This document shows positions 53,165 to 64,000 of a stretch of 64,000 bases of DNA, piece by piece (positions within the stretch are counted from its first letter, which is position 1; the number at the start of each line of letters is the position of its first letter). A model generated the notes under the pieces. The model was not told the DNA's origin. It saw only the letters and a program-made list of their open reading frames with translations, and searched no databases. Source of the DNA: Leifsonia sp. C5G2 (GTDB lineage: Bacteria; Actinomycetota; Actinomycetes; Actinomycetales; Microbacteriaceae); NCBI RefSeq assembly GCF_013359685.1, contig NZ_JABFMV010000011.1:62001-126000 (forward strand), written 5' to 3'. The position numbers were made by a program, and so were the translations under genes.

Positions 53165-55435
53165 ATGCAGCCGAAGAGGCTCGCGACATCCGTGACGATG
53201 GTCACCTCCATGGTTGTCGTCGTCGTGGCCGCCGCCCTTGCTGCGTGCACCGGTACGGCCGACCGCGTGCGCGCCGACGCCCCGAGCCCTCCGCCCACGA
53301 CGAGCGGACCGGACGCGGCGGGCACTCCGGCGCCGTCGCCGACCGCTCCGGCCACGAGCCCGTCGACCCCGGCCGCGCAGCCGCCCGACCCGTCGACCCT
53401 GCCCGACGGGTTGAAGACGGCGATCTCCCGGGACCTCCACATCACGCCGCAGCAGTACCTTGCGGGTGCGCAGGCCGCCGCCGCTGCTCCGGCCACCATC
53501 GCCTCGCTTCAGAAGGCGGGAATCGACCCGGCGCGGGTGTGGCTCGACGGCAGCGTCCTCAAGGTGCACACCACCGACTCGCACGAGCGGGAGGTCGCCC
53601 GCGCGCTCGGGGCGGAGCCTTCCGCCTCCGCACCTCCGGCCGCGCCCGCCGTGTCCACGGCCACATCCTACGAGGACCTGGTCGACGGATCGGGATGGTA
53701 CCTGCCGGTCGGCGGCGGCTACATCTCGATCTGCTCTACGGGGTTCAACGGGTGGAACGCGTCCGGGGCAGCGAGCGTCGCGACCGCGGGGCACTGCCTG
53801 CTCGGCAACTCCCCGGTTCCCGCTGCTCCCGTGACCGCCACGCGGTACGTCCAGACCCAGCCGAACCAGACCGGGACGTCCGGCTCGACGATCGGCAACC
53901 TCGACTACAACTCGTTCCAGTTCGGCGGGGGCTACGACTCCGGGCTGATCGGCGTGAGCAACCCGGCCGTCGCCCCGCGACCACTGGTCTCGACCTGGGA
54001 CGGGAACGCCATCCCCGTGCGCGGCACGATCACCGCCACCGTCGGAGCGTATGTCTGTAAGTCCGGCCGGACGACCGGCTGGACGTGCGGAACGGTCCAG
54101 CGCGTCAACTACGCGCAGGGCATCAGCGGCGGCCAGACCGTCAACTCCGTGCAGACGAGCATGTGCATGTACCACGGCGACTCGGGCGGTCCGGCGATGA
54201 TCGGCTTCTACGCGGTCGGGGTCAACTCCAGCGGGACCTGGTCGAGCGCGGCGTGCACCGACAGCGTAGGCTACTCGGCGATCTACCCGATCCAGGGGAA
54301 CGCCGCCAGCGTCCTCAGCCAGCACACCGGGTGGGAGCCCATGGTGGCGGTGGATGCACCCGCGGTCACCCAGGTGACGCCGGGGACGACGACCGTCCTC
54401 ACGGGTACGCTGCCGAATGCGGCGACGGGCAACTCCGTCTCGGTCTACCTGGATGGCGGCACCACGGCCGCCGGGACCGCCTCCGTCGACGTTGCATCCG
54501 GCGCCTGGAGCGTGTCGGTGCCAGGGCAGTCGGCCGGCTCCCACACCTACCGCGTCGTGGCCGGGTGGGGGGCTCACAGCCGCTCCGCGGCGGCCGCGGG
54601 CGGCTACACGGTCACAGCGACGCCGACCCCGACACCGACGCCGTCGGTCATTCCGACGCAGACCCCCGCCGCCACGGCGACCCCGACCCCGACTCCGACG
54701 TCCACGCCGTCGCCGTCGCCCGGGACGCCCGCTCCCACTCCCGCCCCGCTGCTTCCCGGCTACCCCACCGGCTCCTTCATCAAGTCCCCGAGCTCTGGGA
54801 CGGTCTACATCGTCGGCCCGACCGACATCAAGCCCGTCTCGTCGTGGGGAGCGCTCCTGGCTCTCACCCCCAAGGGACAGAGCCCCGTGATCCGCGTCGT
54901 GCCGGCCTCCGTCATCGCTGGTCTGCCGATCGGGCCGATCGCCCTCACGTCGGGGACGCTGGTCCGCAGTGCCGCCGACGCGACGGTGTACCTCGTCAAC
55001 GGCCTCACCAACAAGATCCCGTTCTCGACATTCGACATCCCCGCCTCCATCGGGATCACAGGATTCTCGTTCGTCAACAGCGCCGTCCTCGCCGGCTACC
55101 CGGCCGCCAAATCGGTCATGGGCTACGGCATCACGTGTGGAGGCACGGACTACGTCGCAGCGGCCGGTACGCTCCGGTCGCTGGATGCGACGACGAAGCC
55201 GCTCTACCCGCTGGTGTTCACGCCCCTCGACTCCTACACCTGCGCCCTGCTCCGCGTGGGGGCGCCCGCCACCAAGTTCCTCCGGACGCCGGACGGCTCC
55301 ATCTACCTGCTCGACTCCGGAACGAAGCGGCCCATCTCCTCGATGGCGCGCTTCGCGCAACTGGGCGGCTCGGTCGGCTACGTCGACGTCACCGCGGGCC
55401 TCGCAGCCACGATCCCGTCGGGGCCGGCGGCCTAG
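53165..55435 (+). CDS. Secreted S1 (streptogrisin-like) serine protease with Ig-like domain and C-terminal repeats
   Basis: This is a 756-residue exported protein. Signal peptide with lipobox-like LAAC near residue 28, then a Pro/Ser-rich linker. Residues about 70-140 resemble the prosegment of S1E proteases. The protease domain (about 165-395) has VATAGHCLLG (His), GGYDSGLIGV (Asp) and MYHGDSGGPAM (Ser), with paired cysteines. A beta domain (about 400-475) and a TPTPTPS linker follow. Three C-terminal repeats of about 50 residues contain SSGTVYIVG, ADATVYLVN and PDGSIYLLD and may bind the cell surface. GGAGGAG precedes ATG 53165. Confidence 0.88.
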   Translation: MQPKRLATSVTMVTSMVVVVVAAALAACTGTADRVRADAPSPPPTTSGPDAAGTPAPSPTAPATSPSTPAAQPPDPSTLPDGLKTAISRDLHITPQQYLAGAQAAAAAPATIASLQKAGIDPARVWLDGSVLKVHTTDSHEREVARALGAEPSASAPPAAPAVSTATSYEDLVDGSGWYLPVGGGYISICSTGFNGWNASGAASVATAGHCLLGNSPVPAAPVTATRYVQTQPNQTGTSGSTIGNLDYNSFQFGGGYDSGLIGVSNPAVAPRPLVSTWDGNAIPVRGTITATVGAYVCKSGRTTGWTCGTVQRVNYAQGISGGQTVNSVQTSMCMYHGDSGGPAMIGFYAVGVNSSGTWSSAACTDSVGYSAIYPIQGNAASVLSQHTGWEPMVAVDAPAVTQVTPGTTTVLTGTLPNAATGNSVSVYLDGGTTAAGTASVDVASGAWSVSVPGQSAGSHTYRVVAGWGAHSRSAAAAGGYTVTATPTPTPTPSVIPTQTPAATATPTPTPTSTPSPSPGTPAPTPAPLLPGYPTGSFIKSPSSGTVYIVGPTDIKPVSSWGALLALTPKGQSPVIRVVPASVIAGLPIGPIALTSGTLVRSAADATVYLVNGLTNKIPFSTFDIPASIGITGFSFVNSAVLAGYPAAKSVMGYGITCGGTDYVAAAGTLRSLDATTKPLYPLVFTPLDSYTCALLRVGAPATKFLRTPDGSIYLLDSGTKRPISSMARFAQLGGSVGYVDVTAGLAATIPSGPAA

Positions 55436-56412: not shown

Positions 56413-56426
56413 GGGCCTTTCGTCCC
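56413..56426. promoter_or_regulatory. DosR/DevR-like box upstream of the P-type ATPase gene
   Basis: GGGCCTTTCGTCCC matches the mycobacterial DosR core GGGACTWWAGTCCC at 12 of 14 positions and keeps the GGGNC-N4-GNCCC frame. It lies about 98 nt before the chosen start and about 47 nt before a start of transcription predicted from TAGGAG (56455-56460). The regulator itself is not in the window. Confidence 0.5.
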
Positions 56427-56510
56427 TGCCGCGCCGGCCGCGGACCTGACTCCATAGGAGTGAGCGGGTCGCGCGCTCCGGAGGACGTCCGCGGCCGGGG
56501 AGGAGGCGCG

Positions 56511-59291
56511 GTGGCGCCGCAGCCGGACGAACGGCCCACACGGGAGCCCATCGACACCCTGCTCCGCGACCTCAAGACCGGACGGGACGGGCTCGGCAGC
56601 AGGGAGGCCGCCCGGCGGCTCACCATTCACGGCCCCAACACACTGCCGACGGGGCGGCGGGCGAGCTGGCTGCGCGAGCTGGTGCGGCAGTTCACGCACC
56701 CGCTCGCGCTGCTGCTGTGGGTTGCGGCCGCGCTGGCGTGGGTGGCCGGGACGCCCGTCCTGTGCTGGGCCATCCTCGCGGTCATCGTCATCAACGCGAT
56801 CGTGGCCTATCTGCAGGGGAGGCAGGCGGAGCGGGCGATCGAGGCGCTGTCCCGCTACCTCCCGCAGCAGGCGACGGTGGTCCGCGACGGCGTCGCCTCG
56901 GAGGTGCCGGCGGTCGACCTGGTGCCCGGCGACGTCATCCTGGTGACCGAGGGCGACCGGGTCTCCGCCGACGCACGGCTGATCGAGGGGAGCGTCGAGA
57001 TGGACCTCTCCACGCTGACGGGCGAGTCGGCTCCCGTCACCCGGTCGGCCGGTGCCGAGGACACGGCGGACCGGTTGATCGACGCCCCGGACGCGGTCTT
57101 CTCGGGCGCGCAGTGCACGTCCGGGCAGGCGCGGGCCGTCGCGTTCGCCACGGGAGCGACGACGGAGCTCGGCCGGATCGCCACCCTCTCCCGTCAGGCG
57201 ACGCCGCAGCTCAGCCCGCTGGAGCGGCAGGTCCGGCGCTCCACCTGGCTGATCGCGGGAGTGGCGGTCGGGGTCGGCGCGCTCTTCCTCCCGCTGGGCC
57301 TGCTGGCGGGGCTGTCGCTGCCGGAGGCCGCCGTGTTCGCGATCGGGCTGCTGGTCGCCAACGTTCCCGAGGGGCTCCTGCCGACCATCACCCTGGCGCT
57401 CGCGGTGGGCGTGCGGGTGCTGGCGCGTCAGGGTGCGCTGGTGAAGCAGCTCTCCGCGGTGGAGACGCTGGGCTCGACGACCGTGATCTGCACGGACAAG
57501 ACGGGGACGCTGACCCGCAACGCGATGACGGTCACGGCCGTGTGGAGCGCGAGACGGGCGATCGACCCGACGGCGCCGGACCCCGCGCTCGGCCCGCTCG
57601 CCGAGGTGATGGTGGACTGCAACCAGCTGGAGCGCCTGTCCGACCCGATGGAGACGGCCCTGCGGGAGGCGGGGGAGCGGCTCGGCGCCCGCGTGGCGCT
57701 TCGGGTCGCGACCTTCCCGTTCGACGCGGAGCGGAAGCGGATGAGCGTGGTGAGCCGCCGCGGCGACCGCCTGCTCGTCGCGGTGAAGGGAGCCCCGGAG
57801 CTGCTGCTCCCGCTGTGCGTCTCGGTCTTCGACGGCACGCGTGCGCGGCCGGCGACGGACTCCGATCGCAGGGAGGTGCTCGACGCGGTGGATGGGTTCG
57901 CCCGGCACGGCCTCCGGGTGCTGGCGCTCGCATCCCGGGAGGCGTCGGCTCCGCCCGAGGATGCGGCCGCGGCCGAGTCCGGCCTCTGTCTCCTCGGGCT
58001 GGTCGCCCTGCTCGATCCGCCGCGGCCCGAGGTGCCCGAGGCGGTCGCCGCCTGCCACAGCGCCGGGATCACCATCCACGTCGTCACCGGCGACAACGGG
58101 ACGACCGCGAGCGAGGTCGCGCGTCAGGTCGGCATCGCGACGGACCGGGTCATCACGGGAAGCGAGGCGGACGCGCTCTCGGAGCCCGAGCTGGATGCGC
58201 TGCTCGCCCAGCCGGGCGAGTTCGTCTTCGCCCGCAGCACGCCGGAGGGGAAGCTCCGGATCGCCGAGGCGCTGCAGCAGGAGGGCCAGACGGTGGCGAT
58301 GACCGGCGACGGGGTGAACGACGCCCCGGCCCTCCACCGGGCCGACATCGGCGTCGCGATGGGCCGCTCGGGGACGGATGTCGCCCGGCAGGCGGCGACG
58401 ATGGTCCTCACCGACGACAACTTCGCGACCATCGTGACGGCGATCCGGGAGGGGCGGCGCGCGTACGACAACCTGCGCAAGTTCGTGCTCTACATCTTCG
58501 TTCACGCGGTGCCGGAGGTCGTGCCGTTCATGCTGTTCGCGCTGTCCGGCGGCGCGATCCCGCTCCCGCTCACCGTGCTGCAGATCCTCGCGATCGACCT
58601 GGGGACGGAGATCCTCCCCGCCCTCGCACTCGGCCGGGAGAAGGCGGAGCCGGACGTGATGTCGCGGCGCCCGCGCCCCCGCTCGGAGCCGCTCATCACG
58701 CGCCGCCTGCTGCTCCGGGCGTGGGGCCTGATGGGGGTGCTCTCCGCCGCGCTGGCCCTCGGCGCGTTCTTCGCGGTGCTCGTCGCCGGTGGCTGGACGC
58801 CGGGGGCGCCCGTGGGGCCCGGCGACCCCCTCCACGGCGTCTATCTGCAGGCGACCACGGCGACGTTCCTCACGATCGTCGCCTGCCAGGTCGGCACGGC
58901 CTTCGCGGCGCGCACCGAGCGAACCTCGCTCCGCCGGCTCGGCGTCCTGAGCAACCCGCCGCTGCTCGCGGCCATCGGCGTGGAGCTGCTCTTCGCCGCC
59001 GCCCTCTGCTCCGTGCCCGTGCTGCAGACGGTGTTCGGCACGGCGCCGCCTCCCGCGTGGCTGATCCTGCTCTTGCTGCCGTGCCCGGTCATCGTCTGGG
59101 GCGCCGACGAGGCGGCGCGCTGGTTCAGCCGGCGGCGAGCCGATCGGCGGTCGGCAAGTGCTGCTCGAACCATCCGGCCGCCAGCTGCGCGACCGTCTCC
59201 AGAGCTCCCGGCTCCTCGAACAGGTGACCGGCGTCCGGGACGACCTCCAGCCGGGTCGGGCACCGCATCCGGGAGAGGGCGAGCCGGTTGA
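56511..59291 (+). CDS. Cation-transporting P-type ATPase (CtpF/PMA1-like)
   Basis: This ATPase has 926 residues from GTG 56511, which follows GGGGAGGAGG. An upstream in-frame GTG at 56460 is less well placed. Domains: cation ATPase N-terminal domain, actuator with LTGESAPV, phosphorylation motif [12 protein letters not shown], nucleotide domain with KGAPELL, hinge [13 protein letters not shown], and about ten helices. It belongs to the P2-type branch with mycobacterial CtpF. The ion is uncertain (Ca, Na or H). The last 50 residues or so are Arg/Pro-rich and overlap the convergent gene by 167 nt; they may be a read-through tail. Confidence 0.92.
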
Positions 59292-60435
59292 GGTCGAGCA
59301 CCTCCGGATCGTTCCCGCCCACGATGAGGAGGGTCGGCGCGGTGACGCGCTCGAGCGCGCCGGCGCCGGCCAGGTCGGGGCGGCCGCCGCGGGAGACGAC
59401 GGCGACGACGCCTTCCTGCTCCTGAGCCGCCGCGGTCAGCGCGGCACCGGCCCCGGTGCTCGCACCGAAGTAGGCGAGCGGGAGCCCGGCCGTCGTCTCG
59501 TCCTGTCGCGCCCACCGGGTCGCGAAGCCGAGCCGCTCGGCGAGCAGCTCGATGTCGAAGACCAGCCGGCGGTCGTGCTCCTCGCCGGGCGTCAGCAGGT
59601 CGAGGAGGAGTGTGGCGATGCCCCGGGCGTTGAGCACAGCGGCCACAAAGCGGTTGCGCGGGCTGTGCCGGGAGCTGCCGCTGCCGTGGGCGAACAGGAC
59701 GAGGCCGGTTGCCTGATCCGGCACGGCGAGCGATCCGGCGAGCGTCACGCGTCCCGCCGGGATCTCGACCTCCGGGTCCAGGTCGGCGGGCGCTCCCGTC
59801 GGCCGGAGGGCCGCGCGTGCGAGAACGCTCGCGACCTCGTCGTCGGTCGTCTGGGTGAAGTCGCGGTACGCCTGGCCGACGGCGAAGTAGGGCACCGGCT
59901 CCTCCAGGCACACGACATCGTCGGCGTCCGGGATCAGCCGGGAGGCGGCCTCCGCAGGACCGACGGGTGCCGCGACGACGACGCGGGAAGCGCCGAGCGC
60001 CCGGGCGACGCGGCAGGCGGCGCGCGCCGTCGACCCGGTGGCGATGCCGTCGTCGACGATGATGACCGTCCGACCGGCGAGGGATACGCGCTCGCGATCG
60101 CCGCGGAACGGGCGGACGCGCCGCTCCAGCTCGGCCCGCTCCCGGTGCTCGACCTCGGCCAGGTCGGCGTCGGTGAGACCGGCCATCCGGACCACGTCGT
60201 CGTCCACGACCCGGACGCCGCCCTCGCCGATGGCGCCCATCGCCAGCTCCGGCTGATACGGCACCCCGAGCTTCCGGACGACGATCACATCCAGGGGAGC
60301 GTGCAGGGCCTTCGCCACCTCGTCCGCCACCGGGACGCCGCCGCGCGGGAGGCCGAGCACGACCGGGTCGTGGACCGCGAGGAACTGCAGGCTGTCGGCG
60401 AGTTCGCGACCCGCCTCGATTCTGTCCGCGTACAT
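59125..60435 (-). CDS. Phosphoribosyltransferase fused to alpha/beta (dienelactone hydrolase-like) hydrolase
   Basis: This 436-residue two-domain protein. Residues about 1-215 are a type I phosphoribosyltransferase with the PRPP loop [17 protein letters not shown] (about 123-139). Residues about 225-430 are an alpha/beta hydrolase with [17 protein letters not shown], nucleophile in [12 protein letters not shown], acid in VGGNDPEVL and histidine in [12 protein letters not shown]. The same fusion occurs in the mycobacterial DosR-regulated gene Rv0571c (family knowledge). The reaction is unknown. GGAGG precedes ATG 60435. Confidence 0.88.
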
Positions 60436-60485
60436 CCGCTCGCCTCCCACCCGGTCGATCCTCCTCGCCGGCGGGCCGCACGGGC

Positions 60486-60499
60486 GGGACCTAGGGCCC
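60486..60499. promoter_or_regulatory. DosR/DevR-like box in the divergent pfkB region
   Basis: GGGACCTAGGGCCC is an almost perfect palindrome (GGGNCCTAGGNCCC) and matches the DosR core at 11 of 14 positions. It is about 42 nt upstream of the pfkB start of transcription predicted from TACAGT (60522-60527). In the other direction GAGGAT (60463-60458) is spaced equally for the fusion gene. Confidence 0.52.
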
Positions 60500-60576
60500 G
60501 CGGCACCCGTCCGCCGGCCGCTACAGTCGGCGCCACCGCGGCTGAGCGCGGCGTACCCGAGAAGGAGGCCGCCACG

Positions 60577-61539
60577 ATGGAGCAGCATCCCGTCGACGCC
60601 CGCCCGGTCCGGCAGATCCTCACCGTGACCCTGAATCCCGCCCTCGACATCAGCGCGTCCACGCAGGAGGTGGTCAGGGAGCACAAGCTGCGCTGCAGCG
60701 GGAGCCGCCTGGACCCCGGCGGGGGCGGCGTCAACGTGTCGCGGGTCATCCACCGCCTGGGCGGCCGGAGCCTCGCCCTGTACACCGCGGGAGGCCCGAT
60801 CGGCGAGGCCTACCGGCGCCTCGTCGACGCCGAGCGCGTGCCGAGCGTGGTCGTGCCGATCGCCGGGCAGACCCGGCAGAGCCTCAGCGTGGAGGAGCGG
60901 GCGACGGGAGCGCAGTACCGCTTCGTGCTCGAGGGGCCGACCCTCAGCGTGGAGGAGTGGGGCGCGTGCCTCGATGTGATCGGGCAGACCGTCGCTCCCG
61001 GCGGCTTCCTGGTGGCGAGCGGGAGCCTCCCGCCGGGCGTCCCGGCGGACTTCTACGCGAGGGCCGTGCGGCTGGCGCGGGAGGCGGGGGCGGAGTGCGT
61101 CGTCGACGCGTCCGGGCCCGCGCTCGGCGCGGCTCTGGCCGAGGGGGTCTTCGCGGTCGCGCCGAGCGGGCGGGAGCTCGAACAGCTCGCCGGCGCCCCG
61201 CTGCCGACCCTCGACGACCGGATCGACGCGGCCACCGCACTGGTCGCGGACGGCTCGGCGCGCTATGTCGCCCTCACGCTCGGCGCCGAGGGTGCCGTCC
61301 TCGTCTCGGCGGAAGGCGTTCTGCGGCTCGCGGCGCCCGTGGTGGACGTCGTCAGCGCCGTCGGCGCCGGCGACGCCTTCGTCGCGGGCTTCGTCCTCCG
61401 GCTCGCCCAGTCGCGGCCGGTGGAGGCGGCGTTCCGCGCGGCCGTGGCGGCCGGAACCGCCGCCGTCATCACCCCGGCGACCGCGCTCTGCGACCGCGCC
61501 GACGTCGAACGGTTCGAGGTGATGCTCGACCGGGCCTGA
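60577..61539 (+). CDS. pfkB: PfkB-family sugar kinase (phosphofructokinase type)
   Basis: This 320-residue kinase of the ribokinase fold has TVTLNPALDISAS at the start (1-phosphofructokinase/PfkB subfamily), the substrate motif DPGGGGVNVSRVIHRLGG, and the ATP/anion-hole motif VVSAVGAGDAFVAGFV with catalytic Asp. It would phosphorylate fructose-6-phosphate, fructose-1-phosphate or tagatose-6-phosphate. There is no fru PTS here, so 6-phosphofructokinase II is plausible. A PfkB (Rv2029c) belongs to the mycobacterial DosR regulon. GAAGGAGG precedes ATG 60577. Confidence 0.87.
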   Translation: MEQHPVDARPVRQILTVTLNPALDISASTQEVVREHKLRCSGSRLDPGGGGVNVSRVIHRLGGRSLALYTAGGPIGEAYRRLVDAERVPSVVVPIAGQTRQSLSVEERATGAQYRFVLEGPTLSVEEWGACLDVIGQTVAPGGFLVASGSLPPGVPADFYARAVRLAREAGAECVVDASGPALGAALAEGVFAVAPSGRELEQLAGAPLPTLDDRIDAATALVADGSARYVALTLGAEGAVLVSAEGVLRLAAPVVDVVSAVGAGDAFVAGFVLRLAQSRPVEAAFRAAVAAGTAAVITPATALCDRADVERFEVMLDRA

Positions 61540-61557
61540 CCGCCCGGCCGCGACGGC

Positions 61558-61571
61558 GGGCCGAAAGCCCC
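61558..61571. promoter_or_regulatory. DosR/DevR-like box upstream of the PEP synthase gene
   Basis: GGGCCGAAAGCCCC keeps the GGGNC-N4-GNCCC frame and matches the DosR core at 11 of 14 positions. It lies about 43 nt upstream of a transcription start predicted from TACCGT (61596-61601). On its own this is weak in GC-rich DNA; its value is the repeated spacing at three promoters. Confidence 0.42.
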
Positions 61572-61654
61572 TGTGCCGGCCGTCGCGGCGGGACGTACCG
61601 TCGCCCCGACGCGTGGGCGCCACCGGCGGCGCCACGGCGGATCGGAGGAGACCG

Positions 61655-64000
61655 GTGGACGGGTTCGTCTTGTGGTTCGACGAGGTCGGGATGGACGATG
61701 TTCCGCGGGTGGGCGGCAAGAACGCCTCCCTCGGAGAGATGACCGGATCGTTGACGCCGGAGGGCATCCGCGTCCCGGACGGGTTCGCGACGACGGCCTC
61801 CGCGTACCGCGCGTTCGTCGCAGAGAACGGGATCGAGCCGGCCCTGCGCGAGCAGCTCGAGCGCTACCGCTCCGGTGCCGTGACGCTGCGGGAGGCCGGG
61901 CAGGAGTTGCGCAGGCTGTTCCTGTCGGCGGAGTTCCCTCCCGCCATCGCGGACGCCGTCCTCCGCGCCTACCGGCGGCTCGGCGAGCGGACCGGCACGC
62001 CGACGCCCGCCGTCGCCGTGCGCTCCAGCGCGACGGCGGAAGACCTCCCGGAGGCGAGCTTCGCCGGAGCCCAGGAGACCTTCCTCAACGTCGCGGGCGA
62101 GCAGGCCGTGCTGACGGCCTGCCGTCGCTGTTACGCATCCCTCTTCACCGACCGGGCGATCGCGTACCGCGAGGCGCAAGGGTTCGACCACCTGGCAGTG
62201 GCGCTCTCGATCGGCGTCCAGTCGATGGTTCGCTCCGACCTCGGCGCGTCGGGGGTCATGTTCACCATCGACACGGAGACAGGCTTCCCGGACGTCGTGG
62301 TCATCAGCGCCGCGTGGGGCCTCGGGGAGCTCGTGGTGCAGGGCGCGGTCGACCCGGACCGGTACCAGGTGTTCACGCCGTTGCTCGACCGGCCCGGCGC
62401 CGAGCCCATCATCGAGAAGGCCCTCGGCGCGAAGGCCCGCATGATGGTCTACGGCGAGGGCGGCACCGCACGCACCCGGACGCTCGACACCCCGGCCCGC
62501 CGCCGCGCCGCGTTCACGCTGACCGACGACGAGATCCTCCAGCTGGCGCGCTGGGGGCGGTCGGTGCAGAAGCACTACGGCCGGCCGATGGATGTGGAGT
62601 GGGCGCGCGACGGGATGACCGGCGAGCTCTTCCTGGTGCAGGCGCGGCCGGAGACCGTGCAGTCGGTGAAGACGCGTCCCGTGTTCGTGGAGCACCACCT
62701 GACCGAGACGGGTCCGCTGCTGCTCTCCGGCGCCGCGATCGGCGATGCGATCGCGGCCGGGACCGTGTGCGTCATCCGCGACCCGTCGCAGATCGCGCGC
62801 TTCACGGACGGCGCGATCCTCGTGGCCGAGATGACCGACCCCGACTGGGTGGCCGTGATCGCGCGGGCCTCCGGGATCGTCACGGATCACGGAGGATCCA
62901 CCAGCCACGCGGCGATCGTCGCCCGCGAATTGGGCATCCCGGCGGTGGTGGGCACAGGATCCGGAACGGAGACCCTGCGCGACGGCCAGCCCGTGACTCT
63001 CTCCTGCGCCGAGGGCGATGTCGGTCACGTCTACGGCGGTGAGCTCGCGTTCGAGACCACTGAGGTCGACCTGAGCCGCGTCCCGGCGACGCGGACCCGC
63101 GTGAACGTCAACGTGGCGAGCCCGAGCGCCGCCTTCCGCTGGTGGCGCCTCCCCGCCGCCGGTGTGGGTCTCGCCCGGATGGAGTTCATCGTCAACAACG
63201 TGATCGGCGTGCACCCGATGGCGCTCGTGCATCCCGACCGGGTGGACGCGGACGCGCGCGCGAGGATCCGGGAGCTGACGGCCGGGTTCGACGACCCGAA
63301 GGACTTCTTCGTCGAGAAGCTGGCCCGCGGGATCGCCAAGCTCGCCGCGCCGTACCACCCGCACGACGTGGTCGTGCGCCTCAGCGACTTCAAGGCGAGC
63401 GAGTACGCGCACCTGCTCGGCGGGGAGGCGTTCGAGGAGCCGGAGGAGAACCCGATGCTGGGCTTCCGCGGCGCCTCCCGCTACTACCACCCGCGCTACC
63501 GCGAGGGGTTCGCGCTGGAGTGCGCCGCCCTGAAGCGCGCACGGGAGCTGCTCGGGTTCGCCAACATCATCCCGATGGTGCCGTTCTGCCGCACACCCGG
63601 CGAGGCCGACCGCGTGCTGGAGGAGATGGCCGCCAACGGGCTGGTGCGCGGCGAGCAGGGCCTTCGCGTCTACATGATGTGCGAGATCCCCTCGAACGTT
63701 ATCCGCGCGTCCGAGTTCGCGCGCCGCTTCGACGGCTTCTCGATCGGGTCGAACGACCTCACGCAGCTGGTGCTCGGCGTCGACCGCGACTCCGAGCTGC
63801 TGGCGCCGCTGTTCGACGAGCGCGACGCGGCGGTCGAGTGGATGATCGCCGAGGCGATCCGGCGGGCGCACGAGGCGGGGATCACGATCGGGATCTGCGG
63901 CCAGGCGCCGAGCGACCACCCCGACTTCGCCGCCTTCTTGGTCGAGCAGGGCATCGACTCCATCTCGCTCAACCCGGACAGCCTGCTGCGGACCATCGGA
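61655..64000 (+). CDS. ppsA: Phosphoenolpyruvate synthase, truncated by the window edge
   Basis: The frame is open from GTG 61655, after GGAGGAG, to the last base (782 codons). This enzyme converts pyruvate and ATP to PEP, AMP and phosphate. The N-terminal ATP-grasp domain has VGGKNASLGEM and AVRSSATAEDLPEASFAGAQ. The central swivelling domain has the phospho-histidine in DHGGSTSHAAIVAREL (Ser where many have Cys before His, as in several archaeal and actinobacterial members). The C-terminal PEP domain has MCEIPSNVIRASEFA and SIGSNDLTQLVLGVDRD. Judged by family length only about ten residues are missing. Confidence 0.94.
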   Translation, partial: MDGFVLWFDEVGMDDVPRVGGKNASLGEMTGSLTPEGIRVPDGFATTASAYRAFVAENGIEPALREQLERYRSGAVTLREAGQELRRLFLSAEFPPAIADAVLRAYRRLGERTGTPTPAVAVRSSATAEDLPEASFAGAQETFLNVAGEQAVLTACRRCYASLFTDRAIAYREAQGFDHLAVALSIGVQSMVRSDLGASGVMFTIDTETGFPDVVVISAAWGLGELVVQGAVDPDRYQVFTPLLDRPGAEPIIEKALGAKARMMVYGEGGTARTRTLDTPARRRAAFTLTDDEILQLARWGRSVQKHYGRPMDVEWARDGMTGELFLVQARPETVQSVKTRPVFVEHHLTETGPLLLSGAAIGDAIAAGTVCVIRDPSQIARFTDGAILVAEMTDPDWVAVIARASGIVTDHGGSTSHAAIVARELGIPAVVGTGSGTETLRDGQPVTLSCAEGDVGHVYGGELAFETTEVDLSRVPATRTRVNVNVASPSAAFRWWRLPAAGVGLARMEFIVNNVIGVHPMALVHPDRVDADARARIRELTAGFDDPKDFFVEKLARGIAKLAAPYHPHDVVVRLSDFKASEYAHLLGGEAFEEPEENPMLGFRGASRYYHPRYREGFALECAALKRARELLGFANIIPMVPFCRTPGEADRVLEEMAANGLVRGEQGLRVYMMCEIPSNVIRASEFARRFDGFSIGSNDLTQLVLGVDRDSELLAPLFDERDAAVEWMIAEAIRRAHEAGITIGICGQAPSDHPDFAAFLVEQGIDSISLNPDSLLRTIG

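Follow-up and report, generated by a model that had tools for sequence, protein, structure and literature searches.

The last part of the 64,000-nucleotide stretch of Leifsonia sp. C5G2 DNA analysed here (the window) very probably belongs, as an accessory module, to a DevR/DosR-type regulon of Leifsonia, driven by a DevR relative through three palindromic sites. This reading agrees with the DosR/DevR-like island proposed in an earlier note on the sequence, and it is supported by a DevR-like regulator and a DevS-like kinase encoded in the same genome, by a box shared with the devRS island, by a concentration of sites across the genus, and by the spacing of the sites to −10-like hexamers and their conservation. 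The four genes of the module would probably be turned on together in low oxygen by the DevR relative. Profile and domain searches confirmed them to be of the four kinds previously named:

56511..59291, plus strand, type II P-type ATPase (domain and profile matches), CtpF-like by the label of the earlier note
59125..60435, minus strand, phosphoribosyltransferase-alpha/beta-hydrolase fusion, Rv0571c-like by the same label
60577..61539, plus strand, PfkB-family sugar (phosphate) kinase (profile and domain matches)
61655..64000, plus strand, PEP synthase (pyruvate, water dikinase), running 84 nt beyond the window end

The start of the CtpF-like gene was placed at GTG 56511 in preference to GTG 56460 because GGAGG stands ahead of the former. 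The best solved relatives of its product were Na,K-ATPase alpha chains, with Ca-ATPases ranking lower, and none of the ion-specific profile models passed its cut-off. The phosphoribosyltransferase start was set at ATG 60435, where our codon-usage gene-calling script took GTG 60450. PEP synthase scored above cut-off with NF005057 and TIGR01418 and far below it with the PPDK model TIGR01828. For PfkB the sole model above cut-off was the broad hexose-kinase model TIGR03168, which does not support its designation as a proven phosphofructokinase. Elsewhere in the window, positions 53165-55435 encode a predicted secreted protein with a signal-like start, a GDSGGP serine-protease motif and a proline/threonine-rich linker.

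A pattern scan revealed three Dev-box-like palindromes in the window, all of them GGGNC-N4-GNCCC 14-mers and each found where it had been claimed to lie (56413, 60486 and 61558):

56413..56426, palindrome GGGCCTTTCGTCCC, before the CtpF-like ATPase gene
60486..60499, palindrome GGGACCTAGGGCCC, between the divergent phosphoribosyltransferase and pfkB genes
61558..61571, palindrome GGGCCGAAAGCCCC, before the PEP synthase gene

A recount against the M. tuberculosis DosR core, which we take to be GGGACTWWAGTCCC, returned the same 12, 11 and 11 matches of 14 that had been given for these sites. The palindrome centres stand 91.5 nt from GTG 56511 of the CtpF-like gene, 84.5 nt from ATG 60577 of pfkB and 90.5 nt from GTG 61655 of the PEP synthase gene. 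Analysis of the sequence following the sites revealed these −10-like hexamers:

60522..60527, plus strand, TACAGT of pfkB, 22 nt after the palindrome and kept in L. virtsii
61596..61601, plus strand, TACCGT of the PEP synthase gene, 24 nt after the palindrome
60458..60463, minus strand, GAGGAT, a possible −10 for phosphoribosyltransferase, at 22 nt from the palindrome shared with pfkB

The first two had been predicted in the earlier note and were retained. The TAGGAG proposed there for the CtpF-like gene was discarded: it lies 28 nt from the site, outside the common 22-24 nt register, and it is not conserved, L. virtsii having TTGGAG at this place. No −10 at 22-24 nt was found after the 56413 palindrome. 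Taking transcription to start 7 nt after the hexamer, the box centres fall at about −41.5 to −43.5, and the box would overlap the −35 position of the predicted promoters of the PfkB, phosphoribosyltransferase and PEP synthase genes but not of the CtpF-like gene. These positions agree with the overlap of the DevR box and the −35 region in M. tuberculosis, as described in excerpts of PMC3029386.

The same register was observed in a larger set of 51 oriented sites, which comprised those facing a reference-set gene at 45-130 nt, the others being dropped. In 31 of these 51, the motif nAnnnT begins 22, 23 or 24 nt downstream of the site, compared with a control rate of 234/3480 (7%); each of the remaining offsets between 10 and 35 has it in at most 3 of them. 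It has to be noted that many of the 51 sites are orthologous, and that a binomial p for the spacing therefore overstates their independence. Genes were called with the script mentioned above, which missed pfkB of the C5G2 genome; the window pfkB and phosphoribosyltransferase sites are absent from the 51, the latter lying 42 nt from the called start and thus outside the 45-130 nt range.

Conservation was examined in the genomes of the genus, of which G000 is that of C5G2 and G001 that of L. virtsii. The PEP-synthase box GGGNCGAAAGNCCC is common to G000, L. virtsii, G017 and G024, and in all four, which are the genus genomes with PEP synthase, it is followed by tgt and, at a distance of exactly 24 nt from the site, by TAnCGT, with many base differences between box and hexamer in G017 and G024. 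L. virtsii has an identical CtpF box, placed about as far from its gene as in C5G2, and the pfkB box at 60486 has one mismatch there. In G017 and G024 only one-mismatch sites were found before CtpF or before the small gene ahead of it; sites with at most one mismatch also occur in 14 of 197 control upstream regions, a set that includes loci fetched for holding a site. In L. virtsii (L101:5901-6020) the phosphoribosyltransferase-hydrolase gene has been lost between PfkB and CtpF, leaving a 23-residue remnant.

These data bear on the membership of the CtpF-like gene. The regulon might be real for PEP synthase, PfkB and phosphoribosyltransferase and not extend to the window CtpF, as the missing in-register −10 and the unconserved TAGGAG would suggest. 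We consider this unlikely, given that the exact palindrome stands some 90 nt ahead of the start in G000 as well as in L. virtsii and that the CtpF orthologue of G024 shares a stretch with devRS.

The C5G2 genome was also found to contain a DevR/DevS-Usp island outside the window, at C30:213-231 kb, reached through HisKA_3 and Usp searches. The regulator and the kinase are encoded there as follows:

C30:217612-218256, DevR-like response regulator
C30:218253-219944, DevS-like kinase

A DevR homologue, for which the earlier note had asked the genome to be checked, is therefore present, together with a DevS/DosT-type kinase. The best match of the regulator is the M. tuberculosis DevR structure 3c3w (E 3.6e-64, 219 bits), followed by VraR (8.1e-43, 150 bits); its recognition-helix stretch LAEKTVKNYVS is identical to that of M. 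tuberculosis DevR, and it is the one DevR match at E<=1e-70 in the genome, which has 12 HisKA_3 matches. The kinase contains GAF, GAF_2, HisKA_3 and HATPase_c domains, and its GAF-A matches the DosT/DevS haem GAF structures 2vzw, 2y8h and 2w3d (E 2e-44 to 9e-41). No NCBIfam model scored above its cut-off, either among the 25 shown for DevR or among the 8 shown for DevS. A histidine of DevS is aligned within GFPxxHPPM of the matching GAF stretch, and would be the same residue as the proximal haem histidine of DosS, given as His149 in a part of PMC4082495.

The genes ADH1, UspD, DevS and DevR follow one another with gaps of 12 and 104 nt and then an overlap, and are likely to form one operon. 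Besides Usp genes, the island holds what we take to be two pyridoxamine-oxidase-like genes, alcohol dehydrogenases, a P-type ATPase and a BON-domain-like gene. When A/T was required at the two centre bases of the palindrome, four of the 27 sites of the genome fell in this island: a tandem pair lies between uspE and ADH1, ahead of the gene run ending in devS-devR, and a second pair before ADH2. The box looked for before Usp genes is thus there, and before alcohol dehydrogenase genes as well. In the same island, a presumably metallo-beta-lactamase-fold-like gene (C30:228108-229518) is in two pieces in different frames, which may be an assembly error or a true break; in G024 and G017 it is one long frame. 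The tandem palindromes before uspE (C30:221974-222003) have their centres 16 nt apart, and tandem palindromes of this type occur in 10 of the 17 DevR-positive genomes of the genus. They resemble the paired, cooperatively bound Dev boxes of M. tuberculosis reported in the relevant part of PMC3029386.

Sites were further collected from 25 stretches (513 kb), comprising 20 devR neighbourhoods (15 from the genus and 5 from the family), the two C5G2 loci and three more, namely the locus in L. virtsii and those of the module in G017 and G024; apart from the stretch of the finding itself, all had been chosen by devR, a Usp/HisKA_3 cluster or a phosphoribosyltransferase gene and not by motif. They carry 71 A/T-centred sites, 3 of them being the finding itself, and 70 of the 71 are outside genes (a definition that tolerates 20 nt inside gene ends); the reversed pattern gave 3 hits. 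In the 20 kb around devR of G004 no A/T-centred site was found. DevR is present (E<=1e-70) in 17 of 28 genus genomes, those scored negative having no such match among the best 20 candidates per genome. Counted with the slightly narrower pattern GGGNCBWWVGNCCC, the mean number of sites was 16.3 in DevR-positive and 9.5 in DevR-negative genomes, a modest difference among related genomes (one-sided p 0.025; 0.037 without the C5G2 genome), and counts of the reversed pattern did not differ between the two groups. Seven of the 17 DevR-positive genomes have counts within the DevR-negative range (maximum 12).

Genuine sites might instead be recognised by a NarL/LuxR-type regulator other than the DevR homologue. 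Related palindromes can serve as targets for members of the NarL family, and the 12 HisKA_3 matches of the genome and the seven DevR-positive genomes without site excess would be compatible with this possibility. Nevertheless, it is very unlikely, as the sites cluster around devR and also stand before the ADH1-UspD-DevS-DevR run, no more than 12 sites occur in any of the 11 genomes of the genus that lack a DevR match, and the recognition-helix stretch is that of M. tuberculosis DevR. Outside the genus, 29 loose sites were counted against 31 for the control in 21 chosen stretches around phosphoribosyltransferase relatives. Among 57 named phosphoribosyltransferase loci, intergenic A/T-centred sites were found only at the L. 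virtsii locus. With no enrichment in the 21 stretches and this single locus among the 57, the idea that the box accompanies this gene throughout Actinobacteria was abandoned. In G131 the phosphoribosyltransferase gene is preceded, at 42 and 66 nt, by two boxes of the loose pattern.

The reading of the sites as DevR boxes does not draw on their raw number. The loose GGGNC-N4-GNCCC pattern occurs 6 times in the window compared with 6.63 expected (65 of 100 shuffled windows carry at least 6) and 147 times in the genome compared with 279 for the reversed control pattern, without excess in either case, and raw excess was dropped as an argument. The earlier note had held a motif frequency no higher than chance to count against its proposal; the raw count is indeed at that level, but it is outweighed by placement, the enrichment of the sites being a local one. 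The 27 A/T-centred sites of the genome (20 for the control) are distributed as 17 outside called genes, one of them in a stretch that we take to resemble 23S rRNA, and 10 inside. Three of the 27 fall within 5.2 kb at the finding, each in a pre-gene gap, a clustering with a Poisson probability of 6e-6 (2e-4 after multiplying by the 27 sites), so that placement, rather than raw number, is what is improbable. Raw counts equal to or below chance and the 10 sites inside genes might suggest that, in a genome of 71% GC, the palindromes arose by chance and the genes are grouped by coincidence. This is scarcely credible and was rejected on placement, since sites stand before the genes of the devRS island and of the module, 70 of 71 are extragenic against 3 control hits, and site and −10 are conserved at fixed spacing in four species.

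Regarding the distribution of the module, the same four of the 28 genomes of the genus, each of them DevR-positive, were found to encode PEP synthase (E<=1e-150) and PfkB (E<=1e-40), and three of these four the phosphoribosyltransferase-hydrolase (E<=1e-40); data on CtpF cover the fetched stretches only. The module occupies three places. In G000 and L. virtsii it is at one and the same chromosomal place, where L. virtsii lacks the phosphoribosyltransferase gene and has those for CtpF, PfkB and PEP synthase. In G024, PEP synthase, PfkB, CtpF and phosphoribosyltransferase genes lie with devRS on one 40 kb stretch. In G017 the module genes are together with ADH2 at a third place, separated from devRS of the same contig by hundreds of kb even if that contig is circular, and their neighbours resemble, by first residues, the acetate-CoA ligase and GH65 genes of C5G2. 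Up to 20 kb after gltX were compared in ten genomes (2.3 kb only in G015). In G025, G019, G013 and G014 the right flank is in place (g_127935 onward, 95% identical) and no module genes turned up within the stretch; the left neighbour HYP116 is kept in G025 and G013 (60%). In G009, G017, G023 and G024 the right-hand flank was not seen within 20 kb after gltX. GltX identity to C5G2 was 98% for L. virtsii, 95% for G009 and G025, 94% for G019, 93% for G013 and G014, and 91% for G017 and G024, so that the four genomes in which the module is missing from the C5G2 place are nearer to C5G2 by this measure than G017 and G024, which carry it. In L033 (C2:114000-133999) a single tRNA gene was found, located before the module. 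Presence and absence of the module may reflect gain or loss. It is conceivable, and we propose it tentatively, that the module is a portable, pre-wired regulon cassette whose genes take their Dev boxes along when they move and join the resident DevR network.

Sites were also found before other genes of the C5G2 genome, which are likely to be further members of the regulon:

C35:62657, acetate-CoA ligase gene, with a site 43 nt before its ATG
C35:113546, GH65/beta-phosphoglucomutase-like fusion, preceded at 333 nt by a site that is also 83 nt ahead of a small upstream gene
C11:493104, DUF1269-like gene (DUF1269 match below cut-off), with a site 67 nt before it

In two species (L115:9608-9660; G017:C1:126264-126313, where the gene was assigned by resemblance), the centre of the acetate-CoA ligase palindrome stands 42-43 nt ahead of the ATG, a position that would fit a leaderless transcript.

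From these elements we infer the following course of events. On a fall in oxygen or a rise in NO, the DevS-like kinase, with its haem-type GAF, would phosphorylate the DevR-like regulator, which would then bind the sites at 56413, 60486 and 61558, overlapping the −35 place, and recruit RNA polymerase for transcription of the CtpF-like ATPase, phosphoribosyltransferase-hydrolase, PfkB and PEP synthase genes, the 60486 site probably serving two divergent promoters. Through their products, the cell would adjust its ion gradients, the entry of sugar phosphates and the PEP-pyruvate node, and the switch in carbon flow at the PEP node suggested in the earlier note may be one result. Control of a PEP-node enzyme by a DevR-type regulator has a precedent, since OsdR of Streptomyces coelicolor binds before the pyruvate phosphate dikinase gene SCO0208, one of the targets named in a part of PMC5069765.

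A search of the literature under CC0, CC BY and CC BY-SA licences found no paper on DosR in Microbacteriaceae, and, judged by titles, none of the papers retrieved for Leifsonia and DevR concerns such a system. The kind of system, DevR/DosR, is already known, and the Leifsonia example is new: it extends to this genus, with a defined box and spacing, a dormancy network known from mycobacteria and Streptomyces. Furthermore, module-bearing and module-free genomes offer a natural comparison for the roles of PEP synthase, PfkB and the ion pump in low oxygen.

The M. tuberculosis box has the centre CTWWAG, whereas that of Leifsonia is often GAAG, CTTC or CTAG. The regulator and the haem-type GAF kinase are homologous to those of the M. 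tuberculosis DosR/DevR system (DevR-DevS/DosT), whose regulon includes Usp, CtpF, PfkB and phosphoribosyltransferase genes according to excerpts of PMC5309233 and PMC4090907; Leifsonia differs from it by PEP synthase and by a separable accessory module. The OsdR/OsdK system of S. coelicolor, as far as it is described in the portion of PMC5069765 considered here, shares with Leifsonia a GGGCC-type box (consensus AGGGCCGATCGGCCCT), Usp and alcohol dehydrogenase genes and a PEP-node enzyme. On the other hand, the Leifsonia box is A/T-centred, and the regulon has PEP synthase instead of PPDK, plus PfkB.
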